A DNA stretch of 8,308 nucleotides from Acinetobacter sp. C32I (GTDB taxonomy: Bacteria; Pseudomonadota; Gammaproteobacteria; Pseudomonadales; Moraxellaceae): NCBI RefSeq assembly GCF_023702715.1, contig NZ_CP098481.1, positions 1 through 8,308 on the forward strand, given 5' to 3'. Shown here piece after piece: positions 368 through 8,274 of the stretch. Position 1 is the first letter of the stretch, and each line of letters begins with the position of its first letter. The position numbers were made by a program, and so were the translations under genes. Below the pieces are notes generated by a model that was not told where the DNA came from, searched no databases, and was given only the letters and a program-made list of their open reading frames with translations.

Positions 368-395
368 GTTTCGCATAACGTGCATTATGTTAATT
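368..395 (+). other. pdif-like XerD/XerC recombination site 1
   Basis: The site reads XerD-like arm GTTTCGCATAA (368-378), spacer CGTGCA (379-384), XerC-like arm TTATGTTAATT (385-395). This is the 11+6+11 layout of Acinetobacter pdif sites, at which host XerC/XerD exchange plasmid modules. The first base of the XerD arm departs from the usual A. The XerC arm and the next 12 bases are identical to those of site 2 (6271-6298). It lies just beyond the 3' end of the Abi_2 gene and so probably marks one edge of the defence module. Confidence 0.85.
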
Positions 396-426
396 TTAGA
401 AAAACTTTACGATCAACTTATAGCAA

Positions 427-1449
427 TCAAGAAAACATTGGGTCATCAAACCATTTCTCAGGTATACCCATTGCTGGTAAAAACTCTAACCCTATTGGGT
501 GATCTACAAAAAGTTGCTTTAATTTTGTAGGTACAATATTTCCATAGCTCGTCTTTTTCAATAGTAAATTCATAATAATAATTGAGCTATAAATCCTATT
601 ATGTTGATCCTTAAGAACCCCATGCTCGTTTGTATATTTTACAAAAGGAATAGTGACTTTACTTGCAATACTGGTAGGTGCTCTAAAGTTTCTATTAAAA
701 ACACGTGAATGATGGCAACAGCAATTGCGTACATCCAAAATCAAAGATATCCAATTTTCTAAAGTTTGATAATTAGCAACATTTAATGCCTTAGCATATC
801 GATCTAACTTATATTCTTGTCTCGTCTCCTCAGAAACATTTTCCATAAATGACTTTAAATTTCCAAAAGTCATTAATTCAATAGCAACCCATCCTGGAGG
901 CAAATCTCTATAAAATGGACAGTAAGGATTAAAATAATTCTTTCTAAAAAATGTCGCGAATTCTTCCTGCGACTCAATAAAATAACTTCTAACAGTGTTT
1001 ACTGTTCCATGAATTTTTTTATTTTCTTTAAATAGCCTATTGTCTAAATACCAAAAATTATTTGCGGTATTTTTATTTAAATGTCTATCAAATGTACTTC
1101 GTAAAAGTACTTCTATTTTTTGAATTAAACCAAAAAGCATTTCTCTTAAAGCTTCATCAAATTTATACAAAGCAATTAAGTGCTTGGAATGAATATTTTT
1201 TTTAAAAAAATCTTTAGGTAATTGATAAGGCACTACTTTTTTTTCAATAAGACTAAACTCTGTTGCATACTTAAAACTTAGTTTTGATAGTCGAAAAGGA
1301 ATGAAATAAGCTTTAAAGCGATAATAACTAAACACTGTTATAGCATCTATTAGTTCTTTTTTATCATCAATAACCAGCCCCTCTTTATGTAACTTACGAT
1401 ACATATACTCTTGATCACGGAAAGGCTTAACGTATGGTTTTAAAGACAT
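427..1449 (-). CDS. Abi_2 (AbiD/AbiF-type) abortive infection HEPN protein
   Basis: This 340-residue protein matches the Abi_2 family of lactococcal AbiD/AbiF type. Visible family blocks, in order, are the N-terminal KPF with EGLVIDD, then SYYRFKAYFIPFR (41-53), the helix LYKFDEALREML followed by IQKIEVLLRS (94-118), PGWVAIELMTFGNL (185-198), and the C-terminal NWISLILDVRNCCCHHSRVFNR block (232-253, here 22 residues: N232 to R253). The last contains R241-x4-H246, the R-X4-6-H signature of HEPN ribonucleases, so RNA cleavage leading to growth arrest is the likely activity. Length is normal. The ATG has no clear Shine-Dalgarno sequence and lies only 26 nt after the terminator of the upstream RNA, so expression probably relies on readthrough. 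The DNA is very AT-rich, which suggests an acquired module. The family call is firm; the phage-defence role is inferred from relatives. Confidence 0.92.
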   Translation of the reverse strand: MSLKPYVKPFRDQEYMYRKLHKEGLVIDDKKELIDAITVFSYYRFKAYFIPFRLSKLSFKYATEFSLIEKKVVPYQLPKDFFKKNIHSKHLIALYKFDEALREMLFGLIQKIEVLLRSTFDRHLNKNTANNFWYLDNRLFKENKKIHGTVNTVRSYFIESQEEFATFFRKNYFNPYCPFYRDLPPGWVAIELMTFGNLKSFMENVSEETRQEYKLDRYAKALNVANYQTLENWISLILDVRNCCCHHSRVFNRNFRAPTSIASKVTIPFVKYTNEHGVLKDQHNRIYSSIIIMNLLLKKTSYGNIVPTKLKQLFVDHPIGLEFLPAMGIPEKWFDDPMFS

Positions 1450-1475
1450 TTTTTTAATTAGCTTTTTTAAAGACG

Positions 1476-1575
1476 AAAAAAAGGTACTTCCGCTTACAGA
1501 TTGCTCTTGGAAAGTACCGTTGTTAAATCCAGTTTATCTTTAAAAAAGATAAACTGGAAACTTCACAAAAACAAA
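1476..1575 (-). ncRNA. Candidate structured RNA upstream of Abi_2 gene (AbiF-RNA-like)
   Basis: On the minus strand two hairpins precede the abi gene. The first pairs 1528-1541 with 1545-1558 (14 bp, 3-nt loop). The second pairs GGTACTTTCC (1518-1509) with GGAAGTACC (1491-1483), has one bulged base and a 17-nt loop, and is followed by seven T, so it is an intrinsic terminator. A -10-like GATATAGC lies about 20 nt upstream of hairpin 1, so the 5' end (about 1575) is only a guess. A conserved RNA motif named abiF has been described near genes of this family; I cannot test here whether this RNA fits that model. The promoter-RNA-terminator-toxin order resembles type III toxin-antitoxin loci, but without their tandem RNA repeats. 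Confidence 0.6.
1483..1518 (-). terminator. Intrinsic terminator between upstream RNA and Abi_2 gene
   Basis: The stem GGTACTTTCC/GGAAGTACC has one bulge, and seven T follow on the minus strand (1482-1476). It ends 26 nt before the Abi_2 start codon, so most transcripts from upstream should stop before the gene. There is little room for a separate promoter after it. Confidence 0.75.
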
Positions 1576-1630
1576 AAAGCTATATCTTCTAAAAAAATAT
1601 ATTTATAAACAACTACTTAACAACACCCTC

Positions 1631-1659
1631 TTGACATGTTGGAGAATATCAAATATAAG
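1631..1659 (+). promoter_or_regulatory. Sigma70 promoter for the AbiEi-like gene
   Basis: A consensus -35 TTGACA (1631-1636) is followed by a 17-bp spacer and a -10 TATAAG (1654-1659). The predicted transcription start is near 1666. The -10 and start point lie inside the 41-bp palindrome 1644-1684, so a protein bound there would block RNA polymerase. The leader to the ATG at 1694 would be about 28 nt. This promoter is the main reason for rejecting the upstream in-frame TTG at 1631 as the start codon. Confidence 0.7.
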
Positions 1660-1684
1660 TCCTAAGGACTTATATTTGATATTC
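1644..1684. repeat. Perfect 41-bp palindrome over a promoter (candidate operator)
   Basis: Arms of 20 bp (1644-1663 and 1665-1684) are perfect inverted repeats around a single central A at 1664; the centre reads AAGTCCTAAGGACTT. It overlaps the -10 and start point of the plus-strand promoter and ends 9 bp before the ATG at 1694. Its position suggests an operator bound by a dimer or tetramer, most simply the AbiEi-like protein itself. In RNA, the part transcribed would be mainly the right arm, so a DNA role is more likely than an RNA hairpin. There is no flanking T run, so it is not a terminator. Confidence 0.85.
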
Positions 1685-1693
1685 AGTATAGAT

Positions 1694-2644
1694 ATGTTTT
1701 TTTCAGAAGCTCTATTTGATAATTTCAATAAATCTTCCCAAATGGCGATTTCAAGACAAGAGCTATACAGTATTTTTCTAAATATTTGGAGTGACAAAGA
1801 ATATAATAATATAAAAATCAATGATTTAAGGTATAACAGCAAACATTATAAGAAAAAGTTTAAAAGTGTTTTATACGAATTAAGATCTCATCCTCAATTA
1901 AAAAGTATTGGCGATGAAATGCATGGCCCTACATACCTTCTCAATATCAATAAAGCCCCATTCGATGCATCTAAAATTATTTGTGATATCTATCCTATAG
2001 GCTATATCTCATATCTTTCAGCTATGGAGTTTCATAAATTAATTCCCTCTAGAAATCATAAGAATATTTTTTTTACAACTATTGATAGGAAAGCCTGGAA
2101 GGAAATTTTTTATCATCTAATAACAGAAAAAGAGTACCCATTTTTTGAAGATACTTACGCACACGACTTATTGGACTTAATTCCTAGGTTTCCTACCGAA
2201 GAAAAATACTTGGATCATGAGCTTATTGTCTTTACTACGAAAAACTTACAAGGATTTGAGCAACAAAAAGGTTTAAGAGTTAGGGAACTTCCTTTTTTGT
2301 TTTTAGATATGGTAAGAACACCTCAATACTGTGGTGGAGTAGAAACTGTTTTAAGTGTTTTTAAAACATATGCGACCCTACTTTTAGAAGATATTCTTGA
2401 TATATGTCAAACACATGGTACGAATATTGATAAAGCTCGAATTGGTTTTATATTAGATGAAATATTAGGAATCCAGCACCCAATTATTGATAAATGGAAA
2501 ATATTAATGATAGGCCAAAGAGGTGGATCAAGAAAATTTGTAGCGTATCTAAATTTTGAACCTAGGTTTTCTGAAACTTGGAATATTTCCTTAAATCATA
2601 CAGCAGTAAGCACTTATGGAATGGTCTTATCAAATCAGGAATAA
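1694..2644 (+). CDS. AbiEi-like antitoxin/transcriptional regulator
   Basis: The protein has 316 residues from the ATG at 1694. Features recalling the AbiEi antitoxin superfamily (type IV toxin-antitoxin) are: a possible N-terminal winged-helix region (about 18-85), the block YPIGYISYLSAMEFHKL (100-116), the LPFLFLDMVRTPQYCGG block (199-215), ARIGFILDEILG (248-259), and a C-terminal RGGSRKF...FSETWNISLN (276-301). AbiEi proteins bind inverted repeats and repress their own operon. The nucleotidyltransferase partner AbiEii, normally directly downstream, is absent. The gene is divergent from the Abi_2 gene and its RNA, and its own promoter sits in a perfect palindrome. There is no clear Shine-Dalgarno sequence before 1694; a further in-frame ATG at 1742 is an alternative start. 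The similarity is at motif level, so the family call is moderate and the regulatory role is inferred. Confidence 0.72.
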   Translation: MFFSEALFDNFNKSSQMAISRQELYSIFLNIWSDKEYNNIKINDLRYNSKHYKKKFKSVLYELRSHPQLKSIGDEMHGPTYLLNINKAPFDASKIICDIYPIGYISYLSAMEFHKLIPSRNHKNIFFTTIDRKAWKEIFYHLITEKEYPFFEDTYAHDLLDLIPRFPTEEKYLDHELIVFTTKNLQGFEQQKGLRVRELPFLFLDMVRTPQYCGGVETVLSVFKTYATLLLEDILDICQTHGTNIDKARIGFILDEILGIQHPIIDKWKILMIGQRGGSRKFVAYLNFEPRFSETWNISLNHTAVSTYGMVLSNQE

Positions 2645-2841
2645 GCCCCATAAAATTAGATATAAGTTACTGTTTAATATATAAATTAATCTAAAACTCA
2701 AATCTCATACTTTGTGTTAAATAAACAACTCAGCAGAAAAAGATCCAACGTTGAGCAATAGCGAATTGTTGTCGGTGATGTAGTAGTTCACCTTGCGTGT
2801 ACTATTACATTACACATCTTGCCTCACCATACAAATTCCAG
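2645..2841. other. Non-coding stretch with an imperfect GTAGTA/TACTAT hairpin
   Basis: No gene is visible. ATGTAGTAGT (2778-2787) faces ACTATTACAT (2801-2810), matching at 9 of 10 positions across a 13-nt loop. The same GTAGTA element recurs beside the rep promoter (4556-4590), so a shared binding protein is conceivable but unproven. I found no terminator directly after the AbiEi-like gene and no third pdif site here. Confidence 0.35.
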
Positions 2842-2851
2842 TTTGCGTATA

Positions 2852-2983
2852 TTTGCCTTTACTTGATACATACAACATCTGGGTTTTGCCTTTATTTGAT
2901 CTTATTTGCTAATTTTTGCTTTTAGTTGCGTATTTTTGATAAAACCATTTGCTTTAATTTGATGAAATTTGCTGTTTTTTGAT
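2852..2983. repeat. Degenerate 16-bp iteron-like direct repeats
   Basis: Six copies approximating TTTGCNTWWWTTTGAT start at 2852, 2885, 2905, 2925, 2948 and 2968. The copies at 2885 and 2948 are the cleanest; those at 2905 and 2925 are degenerate. From 2885 on the spacing is 20, 20, 23 and 20 bp, about two DNA turns, which puts all copies on one face of the helix. That is typical of iterons or of cooperative operator arrays. The repeats do not resemble the 22-bp rep iterons of this plasmid. They end 13 bp before the stop codon of the small gene at 2996-3199. The function is unknown: a vestigial second origin, a partition site or a regulatory array are all possible. Confidence 0.6.
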
Positions 2984-2995
2984 AAAAAATAGAAC

Positions 2996-3199
2996 TCAAC
3001 ACGAAGAATTATTCAATTTTCTCCATTCAGCCATCAAAACAGCATCTTCTTCCTCAAAAGTCGTTTCACCCTCTAAAATACGTTGCTGTCTAGCCAGATC
3101 TTTAACATGACAGGCATCAATGACTTCCTGGGAAAACTCATGATCAACAATCCCTTTAGCACTTTTAAAGGCACTAAGTAGCTTCTCTCTGTCATACAT
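2996..3199 (-). CDS. Small hypothetical protein, 67 aa
   Basis: I do not recognise this protein. It is a soluble, charged polypeptide that looks mostly helical, with an acidic middle to C-terminal stretch (ILEGETTFEEEDAVLMAEW) and one histidine-rich/aspartate patch near residue 19. The start is well supported: on the minus strand a strong GAGGAG Shine-Dalgarno sequence lies about 10 nt before the ATG. It follows the zinc-ribbon-like gene at 3248-3439 by 48 nt on the same strand, so the two probably form an operon. Size and location would fit an antitoxin-like or regulatory peptide, but no toxin partner is adjacent and I assign no function. Confidence 0.65.
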   Translation of the reverse strand: MYDREKLLSAFKSAKGIVDHEFSQEVIDACHVKDLARQQRILEGETTFEEEDAVLMAEWRKLNNSSC

Positions 3200-3247
3200 A
3201 TCTTTAGATCTCCTCTATTCAAACACCCAAGCTTGATCGAATCAGGA

Positions 3248-7103: not shown

Positions 7104-7496
7104 TTAAGCTGTCTTTCGTGTCTTGCGGTGCTGTTTCAAAAGTAATTCAGCCTCATGAAGTTTCTTTTCAAGCTCTTCATTAGCTTGCATTAGCTCTCTG
7201 TACATGATTTTCTTTTCAGCATCTACAAACCTTTTAAGAACCTCACGCATTAATGCTTGATATCCTAATTTTTGAGCTGAGCCAATTTCTTTCAAATCAG
7301 CAATTAAATCTTTCGGTAAACGAATAGAAATCATTTGCATATTGCTAGATTTATTTAAAATTTCATGAAAACTAGCAGGAACTGGTGAAGCCTTTACGAA
7401 ATTAGGATCTCCGCCTAACTCTCTACTTTCCCATAAGTTTTCATCATCTAGCTCAAGTGACTCTATTATTGCTTGAACTTGATCTTTATTTTTCAT
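7104..7496 (-). CDS. Ribbon-helix-helix (CopG/BrnA-like) antitoxin
   Basis: The 130-residue protein has an N-terminal segment LWESRELGGDPNFVKASPVP (21-40), typical of BrnA-like antitoxins, a ribbon-helix-helix domain (MISIRLPKDLIADLKEIGSAQKLGYQALMREVLKRFV, about 55-91) and a charged coiled-coil tail (about 94-122) ending in a basic RKTRKTA. RHH antitoxins dimerise, bind their promoter and neutralise the toxin. Its likely partner is the BrnT-like protein at 7635-7943, upstream on the same strand, giving toxin-first order. Unusually, 138 nt and a hairpin terminator separate them, so this gene probably has its own promoter; no clear one is seen. It may resemble the SplTA/AbkAB type reported from Acinetobacter plasmids, but I name this from memory only. 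Confidence 0.8.
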   Translation of the reverse strand: MKNKDQVQAIIESLELDDENLWESRELGGDPNFVKASPVPASFHEILNKSSNMQMISIRLPKDLIADLKEIGSAQKLGYQALMREVLKRFVDAEKKIMYRELMQANEELEKKLHEAELLLKQHRKTRKTA

Positions 7497-7560
7497 ATCT
7501 CTACCTAACTATTTAATCGTGTTAGCTGCACGGCACTTGAATAAGTACATTTCGATGGAT

Positions 7561-7583
7561 AACTGAATAATTTTCATTCAGTT
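7561..7583. repeat. Inverted repeat between toxin and antitoxin genes
   Basis: AACTGAAT (7561-7568) faces ATTCAGTT (7576-7583) across 7 bp. It lies next to the terminator and 65 bp upstream of the antitoxin ATG, where an operator for the RHH protein or a second hairpin would be expected. Either reading is possible. Confidence 0.45.
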
Positions 7584-7586
7584 TCT

Positions 7587-7630
7587 AAAGCACTCTAAAA
7601 AGTGTGTAACACCACCTTTTAGAGTGCTTT
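7587..7630. terminator. Hairpin terminator inside the toxin-antitoxin unit
   Basis: AAAGCACTCTAAAA (7587-7600) pairs with TTTTAGAGTGCTTT (7617-7630), a perfect 14-bp stem with a 16-nt loop, 4 bp past the stop of the putative toxin gene. The longer T run (7628-7632) is on the plus strand; on the minus strand only three T follow, so in the direction of the genes it may be leaky. Confidence 0.75.
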
Positions 7631-7634
7631 TTCA

Positions 7635-7943
7635 TTAATTAGCGTTAAAGAACATGTCTATTTCAGTTTGATTAGGATCAAAAGCAGATTTAATTGCAAA
7701 CTTTTGACTCTTTTCATGAAGAATAAAACAGATTTTCAATAAGCGCCCTGAATCAGTTTCACTAATAAACCATAATGTAGGTGGATTAGTTTTGTGGTCT
7801 TCACGCTCATCTTCTAGAAAATGAGTGCCGCTAAAATTAAAAAAACATTGCTCAACTTCTGTAGGAACTACATTGTGCTTATCGACTAGCTTCTGTCGGA
7901 CACGAGCTGAGATTAAAAATGGATCATCATTACCACCAGACAT
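7635..7943 (-). CDS. BrnT-like putative toxin, 102 aa
   Basis: This small protein shows the order RVRQKLVDKHNVVPTEVEQCFFN (14-36), FLEDEREDHKTNPPTLWFISETDSGRLLK (42-70), ICFILHEKSQKFAIKSAFDPNQTEIDMF (71-98). That recalls BrnT-type ribonuclease toxins and related plasmid toxins paired with RHH antitoxins. The pairing of a basic strand after GR with a C-terminal strand carrying an acidic DPNQTEID motif supports the family. The start has a GGAG Shine-Dalgarno sequence about 11 nt upstream. Toxicity by mRNA cleavage is inferred from relatives. Its partner would be the 7104-7496 gene. TTGTATATACAA palindromes lie upstream and may be its operator. Confidence 0.7.
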   Translation of the reverse strand: MSGGNDDPFLISARVRQKLVDKHNVVPTEVEQCFFNFSGTHFLEDEREDHKTNPPTLWFISETDSGRLLKICFILHEKSQKFAIKSAFDPNQTEIDMFFNAN

Positions 7944-8177: not shown

Positions 8178-8245
8178 GGGCATCGGACTCGTCTAGTAAG
8201 TCATAATTTGATAGATCTAAACTGATTTAAAAATCATAGGCAATA

Positions 8246-8274
8246 AAAAACCCCGACATCCTGTCGGGGTTTTT
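8246..8274. terminator. Strong bidirectional terminator
   Basis: AAAAACCCCGACA (8246-8258) pairs perfectly with TGTCGGGGTTTTT (8262-8274) across a 3-nt loop: a GC-rich stem with A and T runs on both sides. No gene ends close by inside the window. It insulates the toxin promoter region from transcription coming across the presumed circle junction. Confidence 0.9.

Follow-up and report, generated by a model that had tools for sequence, protein, structure and literature searches.

An abiF-like RNA before an Abi_2 HEPN gene and a partnerless AbiEi gene with a palindromic promoter on an Acinetobacter plasmid

Introduction

What brings together a predicted HEPN RNase of the Abi_2 family, a short terminated RNA directly before its gene and a divergent AbiEi-type gene that has no AbiEii, and which of these parts controls which? 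The question is raised by a locus on an 8,308-bp plasmid of Acinetobacter sp. C32I, contig C2 of genome G000 (4.19 Mb, two contigs), which was analysed over its whole length and is called the window below. Our answer, which we hold with moderate confidence, is that the RNA binds and silences the predicted RNase, while the partnerless AbiEi represses its own promoter through a 41-bp palindrome. New, as read from the sequence, are a partnerless Acinetobacter AbiEi clade with changing toxin-like neighbours, and a promoter palindrome whose arms drift in letters and still pair. The locus comprises the following features.

427-1449 (-): Abi_2/AbiD family HEPN protein, predicted RNase toxin, 340 aa (PF07751, PADLOC AbiD, RX4H motif)
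1477-1524 (-): abiF-like RNA element with AACAAC, an outer stem, one 5' A, a 3-bp inner stem, the six-base 3' loop GUAAGC and a U-run (terminator) (held-out covariance model R2)
1528-1558 (-): first hairpin of the RNA, 14-bp perfect stem and 3-nt loop (repeat finding, folding)
1596-1623 (-): candidate promoter of the RNA and Abi_2, TTGTTA-16-TATATT (9/12 matches, alone not above chance)
1631-1659 (+): candidate AbiEi promoter, TTGACA-17-TATAAG (11/12 matches; -10 box within the palindrome, predicted start near its centre)
1644-1684 (no strand): perfect 41-bp palindrome with arms of 20, centre 1664 and core TAAGTCCTAAGGACTTA, putative AbiEi operator (repeat finding, covariation)
1694-2644 (+): AbiEi-type protein of 316 aa with a winged helix and a C-terminal domain, without AbiEii (PADLOC profile, predicted fold)

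The Abi_2 protein and its upstream RNA

The protein encoded at 427-1449 (-) belongs to the Abi_2 family, as demonstrated by its matches to Pfam PF07751 (E 7.3e-35, 121.4 bits, cut-off 25.6), the PADLOC AbiD profile (1.1e-51) and PDB entry 8vz6, an 'Abi family protein' (4.7e-26). Its RX4H motif reads RNCCCH and lies at residue 241, confirming the HEPN gene with R-x4-H of the original prediction, and the motif is present in 41/41 distinct Abi_2 proteins of at least 200 aa from the compared loci, the window included. In the Abi_2 tree the window protein groups with proteins of Pantoea, E. coli, Enterobacter and Salinivibrio (support 100/99), and that of L002, the locus on A. cumulans plasmid p5_060092 (NZ_CP035940, genome G023), falls in a neighbouring, different clade (96/90); L-numbers denote loci and P-numbers metagenome clusters. 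Additionally, Photorhabdus locus L049 has, at a distance of about 1.7 kb from AbiEi, a 109-aa frame (2878-3207, -) that by eye resembles a broken N-terminal piece of Abi_2.

The strand before this gene, 1450-1600 (-), has a folding energy of -39.4 kcal/mol (z -4.55), which 0/200 shuffles equal. Specifically, the 14-bp hairpin is followed by a U-run hairpin that ends about 26 nt ahead of the Abi_2 ATG, as had been proposed for a two-hairpin, terminated RNA, and the transcript predicted from the candidate promoter would cover about 1589-1477. A simple terminator scan of 300-2800, restricted to loops of 3-8, detected none. Abi_2 upstream regions from Acinetobacter, Enterobacteriaceae, Pantoea, Salinivibrio and others mostly carry, near the gene, the same succession of AACAAC, a hairpin (outer stem, short inner stem and unpaired stretch on its 3' side) and a U-run. 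The inner stem of the window hairpin is AGA/UCU and its loop GUAAGC; the element has the position of abiF, directly upstream of Abi_2, and its folded shape, compared by eye, is that of the Rfam abiF consensus (CCCGCC-A-AGC ... GCU-CAAAUC-GGCGGG).

Two covariance models, whose E-values are rough by the tool's own account, were built for this RNA. R2 comprises five RNAs from E. coli, Enterobacter, Salmonella, Salinivibrio and Pantoea loci with an Abi_2 near that of the window; it recovers the held-out window RNA at 1477-1524 (-) with 30.2 bits (E 5.6e-5), the next match having 12.0 bits. R1 comprises ten sequences, with window and A. cumulans excluded from training, and recovers the held-out A. 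cumulans RNA at E 5.6e-6. Its stems covary, 89.8% of the cells in the training alignment pairing vs 74.6% in shuffles, and 7/10 pairs change on both sides. An R1 match lies directly upstream of Abi_2 in 38/45 loci searched (E 3.8e-12 to 0.3); ten of these 38 are training loci, many are near copies of one another, and L064 is counted among them, its match being at one end of a circular record and its gene at the other. The negative loci are L014, L015, L026, L041, L063, L066 and L070; in L063 and L066, which were both used in R2, the RNA is visible by eye. Among the 175 Acinetobacter species genomes that make up our genus survey, 72 have R1 matches at E <= 0.01, many of them short and resembling plain terminators. 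In the window itself the best R1 match was rejected as an unrelated terminator (8245-8274, -; E 0.022). By these comparisons the predicted RNA before Abi_2 is real and homologous to other Abi_2-associated RNAs.

The Rfam abiF model (RF03085) scored 37.6 bits on its positive control, phiC2, and found nothing in genome G000 at E <= 10, in L002-L005 at E <= 5 or in L063-L066 at E <= 1. It gives sub-threshold scores of 31-36 bits at the same place in 4/11 homologous Abi_2 loci (L032, L068, L069, L071), so the RNA class grades into abiF, and the window RNA is abiF-like and outside RF03085 as that model stands.

The abiF-like RNA also occurs alone, because strong R1 matches exist that have no downstream Abi_2; seven of eight such matches were inspected (the eighth is in G098), and by eye no Abi_2 frame follows them. 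Three, with R1 scores of 36-38 bits, precede small phage-like genes: L088:307-354 (+) and L089:1986-2035 (-), both from genome G005, and L090:271-319 (+), from genome G058. These genomes have no Abi_2 match at all, and PHROG families including an HNH endonuclease lie downstream in L088 and L090. Phage mimics of the RNA antitoxin ToxI are known, and by analogy the three may possibly be phage decoys against Abi_2 toxins. Three more solitary copies (L087:394-456, +; L092:1609-1667, -; L093:401-459, +) lie near restriction-type or insertion sequence (IS)-type genes, again with no downstream Abi_2 frame seen, and the surroundings of the solitary match L091 could not be assigned to the phage, restriction or IS type.

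The AbiEi protein

The divergent gene encodes a protein that the PADLOC AbiEi profile matches over residues 3-301 (E 7.6e-59), while no Pfam family matches it at E <= 1. Its AlphaFold model has a predicted local distance difference test (pLDDT) score of 91.5 and the winged-helix plus C-terminal fold, with 1zel and 6y8q as the closest folds; a sequence search of the PDB with the AbiEi alignment A1 gave no AbiEi match, and the likeness to AbiEi structures is one of fold. The profile places the 1694-2644 protein inside AbiEi. No AbiEii (DUF1814) gene, the mark of an AbiE type IV toxin-antitoxin system, stands beside it: AbiEii is absent among the window proteins scanned, and its Pfam family has no match in the whole of G000 at E <= 0.001. 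The earlier description of a divergent AbiEi-like gene without AbiEii thus holds.

A contig scan with the single AbiEi protein found nothing, and with alignment A1 it found 11 loci. A phage collection and viral contigs searched with the AbiEi protein yielded nothing, nor did the viral contigs when searched with Abi_2, the palindrome or the RNA pattern. AbiEi proteins of the A. cumulans type (L002:6452-7825, +; P0010-P0016) are longer by an added C-terminal domain of about 140 aa; no Pfam family matches P0016, and the model of the 457-aa A. cumulans-type protein is poor (pLDDT 52.6).

A palindrome at the AbiEi promoter

An inverted repeat over its own promoter is characteristic of the AbiEi family, and the palindrome at 1644-1684, which the original prediction did not list, contains the predicted -10 box. 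In 23/23 distinct AbiEi loci that have upstream DNA, the proximal promoter lies within a fixed-core palindrome about 41 bp long, L047 being excluded from all palindrome counts (its contig begins at the AbiEi gene). In these loci a -10-like box in the left arm ends 5-7 bp before the centre, and a TTGACA-like -35 box lies outside.

We aligned the palindromes of 20 loci, leaving out the near copies L050, L051 and L078, each of which has the palindrome; several rows come from close relatives (Psychrobacter, Halomonas) and are not independent events. Watson-Crick pairing is kept in 20/20 loci for pairs 1-18, in 19/20 for pair 19 and in 18/20 for pair 20, and drops to 13, 6 and 5 of 20 beyond, a sharp end of the element. 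Altogether 397/400 cells are Watson-Crick, or 400/400 if G-T/G-U is accepted. Positions 1-5, 7, 9 and 10 are invariant across the 20 loci, whereas positions 11-20 carry 0.2-1.1 bits of letter information yet pair. The covariation score is 0.673 vs 0.122 in shuffles and <=0.114 when slid, and 12/20 pairs change on both sides. In the window the core has one match with <=3 mismatches, against 0.03 expected. TAAGTCCTWAGGACTTA is found unchanged in six genomes of the genus, the very six that have AbiEi homologues, and with one mismatch in four further genomes; the reversed control pattern matches six genomes. One of the AbiEi genes is on A. nosocomialis CP107050 (genome G061), at the matching position. 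As an RNA hairpin the palindrome is not our main reading, the predicted transcript starting near its centre and containing one arm only.

The number of palindromes goes with the presence of AbiEii. The partnerless loci have one palindrome each (8/8), and in 14/15 AbiEii-bearing loci another is present about 100-130 bp farther upstream, L079 having one only (Fisher p 2.8e-5, with L044 and L051, from one strain, merged and kinship uncorrected). Distal palindromes can be perfect, as at L044 4742-4788, and in 13/14 cases they hold a promoter-like site with at least 9/12 matches that is directed away from AbiEi. Past them, four compared pairs lose their homology within about 35 nt; L048/L052 share another stretch, of 68 nt, and L049/L050 are near copies throughout. 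Because homology fades in this way, the distal promoter seems to read out of the AbiE cassette; in the divergent sequence beyond, no conserved RNA could be made out.

Neighbours of partnerless AbiEi genes

Six partnerless Acinetobacter AbiEi proteins form one clade (99/97), in which those of the window and L002 are sisters (100/99); L005, whose gene is split over two frames, was left out of the tree. Toxin-like genes stand divergently beside 6/7 Acinetobacter partnerless AbiEi genes, as follows.

Window and L002: divergent Abi_2
L004: divergent DUF3800 (1e-17)
L008: divergent NYN (5.3e-10)
L005: divergent gene annotated as YafO family, with a small gene (Pfam 0.0061, below cut-off)
L011: divergent pair similar to that of L005 (Pfam 0.05, weak)
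L003: no divergent neighbour; the upstream gene has the same direction as AbiEi and weakly matches the PBECR1 nuclease

The plasmid of A. cumulans repeats the window's order and orientation of Abi_2, RNA, palindrome and AbiEi. The two AbiEi proteins are 55% identical and stand beside Abi_2 proteins that are 27% identical and of different lineages; unlike that of the window, the A. cumulans AbiEi carries the extra C-terminal domain. Since the pairing recurs in this one other Acinetobacter genome, and the same AbiEi clade elsewhere faces other toxin-like genes, Abi_2 looks like an exchangeable neighbour of AbiEi rather than a fixed partner. The best reading of these sequences is that the partnerless clade represents a regulator cassette and that the toxin modules next to it were exchanged. 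In metagenomes, AbiEi cluster P0008 (69%) and Abi_2 cluster P0058 (83%) both have a longest contig of 3,157 nt and are probably on one contig.

The leaders of the NYN gene (L008:1216-1345, -; z -1.1) and the DUF3800 gene (L004:3760-3905, -; z -4.2) each contain a hairpin near a U-run directly ahead of the gene, which is a lead only to possible RNA antitoxins. In Acinetobacter genome G082 (L010, contig C44, 2231-3064, -) a RexA-family protein (PF15969, 8.8e-85) is encoded upstream of AbiEi-AbiEii, on the same strand.

Proposed mechanism and alternatives

In the mechanism that we favour, an RNA of about 113 nt would start near 1589 and mostly stop at about 1477, and occasional read-through would yield Abi_2. 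The RNA hairpins would keep Abi_2 inactive until a phage or another shock cuts the RNA supply. The RNA would hence be an antitoxin that also limits Abi_2 synthesis by termination, like RCd22, which binds and neutralises AbiF; neutralisation, binding and read-through are experimental results from C. difficile phi027 in the relevant passages of PMC12373285. The earlier suggestion that the RNA restrains the HEPN toxin is supported by this parallel as the best reading, and a type III-like antitoxin action on Abi_2 is proposed by analogy with RCd22 only. On the other side of the intergenic region, two copies of AbiEi would occupy the two palindrome arms and close their own promoter. As the two candidate -35 boxes are only 7 bp apart, such occupancy might, as a guess, also shift RNA polymerase to the RNA/Abi_2 promoter. 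AbiEi and Rv2827c repress their own promoters on inverted repeats, as described in PMC3985639 and PMC7319586, and by this analogy autorepression at the palindrome is probable.

Several observations weigh against this reading. The candidate promoter of the RNA is a weak one, and shuffled sequences contain more promoter-like sites than the real one. R1 with default filters does not detect the window RNA, which scores 11.1 bits without filters; Rfam abiF (gathering score 37 bits), the model first proposed for scanning it, has no match in the window at E <= 5, whereas the held-out R2 does match. Of 34 R1 matches in the genus at E <= 3.5e-4, 8 do not adjoin an Abi_2 match, against 26 that do. Long branches occur in the Abi_2 tree, including those of the window and L002. 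Counting homologous loci, the two proteins are rarely adjacent, in just 2/6 AbiEi-bearing and 2/31 Abi_2-bearing genomes of the survey. Abi_2 cluster P0055 (87%) reaches a 26.6-kb contig, longer than any contig listed for the AbiEi clusters above 35% identity, and therefore counts against a fixed Abi_2-AbiEi pairing.

In the original prediction AbiEi would repress the Abi_2 locus or act as a second control; the sole operator-like palindrome covers AbiEi's own promoter. Direct repression of the divergent RNA/Abi_2 promoter by AbiEi, a true second control on the toxin, is possible, if on the unlikely side. It would fit the shared intergenic region of 189-254 bp (by frame-finder start codons) in the six loci with divergent toxin-like genes, the recurrence of the pairing with a second Abi_2 lineage, and the candidate -35 boxes of the window, which stand back to back 7 bp apart. 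The back-to-back layout is not evidently kept in other loci, however, where candidate divergent promoters lie at varying distances, which speaks against our own scheme as well. The palindrome also stands on the AbiEi side, and the distal palindrome of the AbiEii-bearing loci was found in 0/8 partnerless ones.

We hold it rather unlikely that AbiEi is a passenger independent of Abi_2 and came to lie beside it by an accident of module shuffling; such a passenger might serve as an anti-addiction module that protects the cell against AbiEii toxins of other plasmids. The partner does vary along the AbiEi clade, no AbiEii match was obtained in 5/5 genomes that hold a partnerless AbiEi, both domains of the protein are kept, and an AbiEii-bearing Acinetobacter plasmid exists. 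Yet toxin-like divergent neighbours recur at similar spacing in the 6/7 loci listed above, and none of ten inspected AbiEii-bearing loci (L010, L044, L045, L049, L050, L051, L052, L074, L075, L079) showed one by annotation or eye, most of them without a family search; L046 and L048 were left out of the neighbour counts.

Also unlikely, in our view, is a DNA-structure switch in which the symmetry itself (cruciform or hairpin) matters and AbiEi reads structure and the fixed core, not the outer letters. Such a switch would suit arm positions 11-18, low in letter information (0.2-1.1 bits) and paired in 20/20 loci, and the window strand, which folded as DNA reaches -16.9 kcal/mol (z -10.7). Within a locus, proximal and distal arms share on average 3.0/10 letters vs 2.8/10 between loci (11 loci, range 1-8). 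However, a dimer with a co-evolving half-site preference could equally keep the symmetry, replication template switching could perfect palindromes, and L074 shares 8/10 letters between its two sites, the distal site being only a putative AbiEi target.

A broader proposal, which we consider quite unlikely as a whole, would make the partnerless AbiEi of Acinetobacter plasmids a portable regulator platform that has lost AbiEii and takes up, on its divergent side, unrelated modules for RNase-type toxins (HEPN Abi_2 together with its RNA, NYN, DUF3800, YafO-like), with AbiEi at large reading its self-complementary promoter by symmetry (a fixed 11-bp core, drifting pairing arms and a cruciform-type switch). 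Finally, AbiEi is very unlikely to be a protein antitoxin that contacts Abi_2 or its RNA, since, despite the divergent adjacency in two Abi_2 lineages and the extra domain of about 140 aa in the A. cumulans type, this AbiEi clade also faces toxin-like genes of unrelated families, Abi_2 already has an RNA, and the known toxin partner of AbiEi is a nucleotidyltransferase in PMC3985639.

Comparison with known systems

The window resembles AbiF/RCd22, as the relevant passages of PMC12373285 describe it, in its Abi_2 HEPN protein and in a short same-strand RNA with a terminator and an abiF-like motif just upstream; a read-through transcript is shown for RCd22 and predicted in the window. RCd22 has two abiF motifs and a separate terminator, whereas in the window a plain hairpin precedes a single motif-like hairpin, which doubles as the terminator. 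Also unlike that system, the window RNA lies beyond the reach of RF03085, a divergent AbiEi gene is present, and neutralisation by the RNA is a prediction.

With AbiE type IV systems (described in PMC3985639 and PMC7319586) the locus shares the AbiEi fold and the inverted repeat over the AbiEi promoter, but not AbiEii. The arms of the window palindrome are perfect and 1 bp apart, whereas the arms of the described S. agalactiae repeat are 23 bp long, contain 4 mismatches and are separated by 3 bp, and the cores differ. AbiEi proteins about 31-34% identical to that of the window, with a proximal palindrome core GTCCTWAGGAC, are encoded in operons of Klebsiella, Citrobacter and Providencia, which unlike the window have AbiEii, a phosphatase and a second palindrome farther upstream. 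On plasmids of these genera (Klebsiella L075, Providencia L076, Citrobacter L078) the abiE operon reads AbiEi-AbiEii-PP2C phosphatase; auto-phosphorylation is reported in PMC11375011 for related nucleotidyltransferase toxins.

That Abi_2, its RNA and AbiEi form a non-standard arrangement, as had been suggested, is supported. A literature search of titles and abstract openings found no account of a partnerless AbiEi beside other toxins, and in the relevant passage of the A. baumannii plasmid survey PMC7315799, AbiEii/AbiGii are the only modules named.

With this locus the RNAs associated with Abi_2 gain a gammaproteobacterial class not detected by the public model, although the abiF RNA paper (Weinberg 2017) or the Cas13-origin paper may describe proteobacterial variants. 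The class bears on the spread of RNA-gagged HEPN nucleases, which PMC12373285 treats as relatives of Cas13 ancestors. Some of its copies stand alone in phage-like surroundings, as expected of a phage decoy. An AbiEi clade that has no AbiEii and stands beside changing toxin-like genes implies that AbiEi may act as a stand-alone regulator, and pairing that is kept while letters drift leads to a testable question, whether AbiEi reads sequence or symmetry.

Other features of the plasmid

The window plasmid carries an Acinetobacter RepM gene (NF038290, 6.9e-136). At 2727-2824 (-) a traJ-II RNA match stays below threshold (32.5 bits vs gathering 40), and at 7104-7943 (-) lies a likely BrnT/BrnA-type toxin-antitoxin pair, with a weak BrnT match (0.036) and a CopG-type antitoxin (8.9e-6, just below cut-off). 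Two Xer sites of the pdif type are also present.

369-396 (+): pdif-type Xer site, 0 mismatches, none in 200 shuffles; it borders one side of the locus-bearing segment
6272-6299 (+): second pdif-type Xer site

The name pdif is consistent with PMC13141974, a paper on dif modules that makes no mention of abiE, Abi family or abortive. Six other Acinetobacter plasmids carry sequence near-identical to the site at 369-396.

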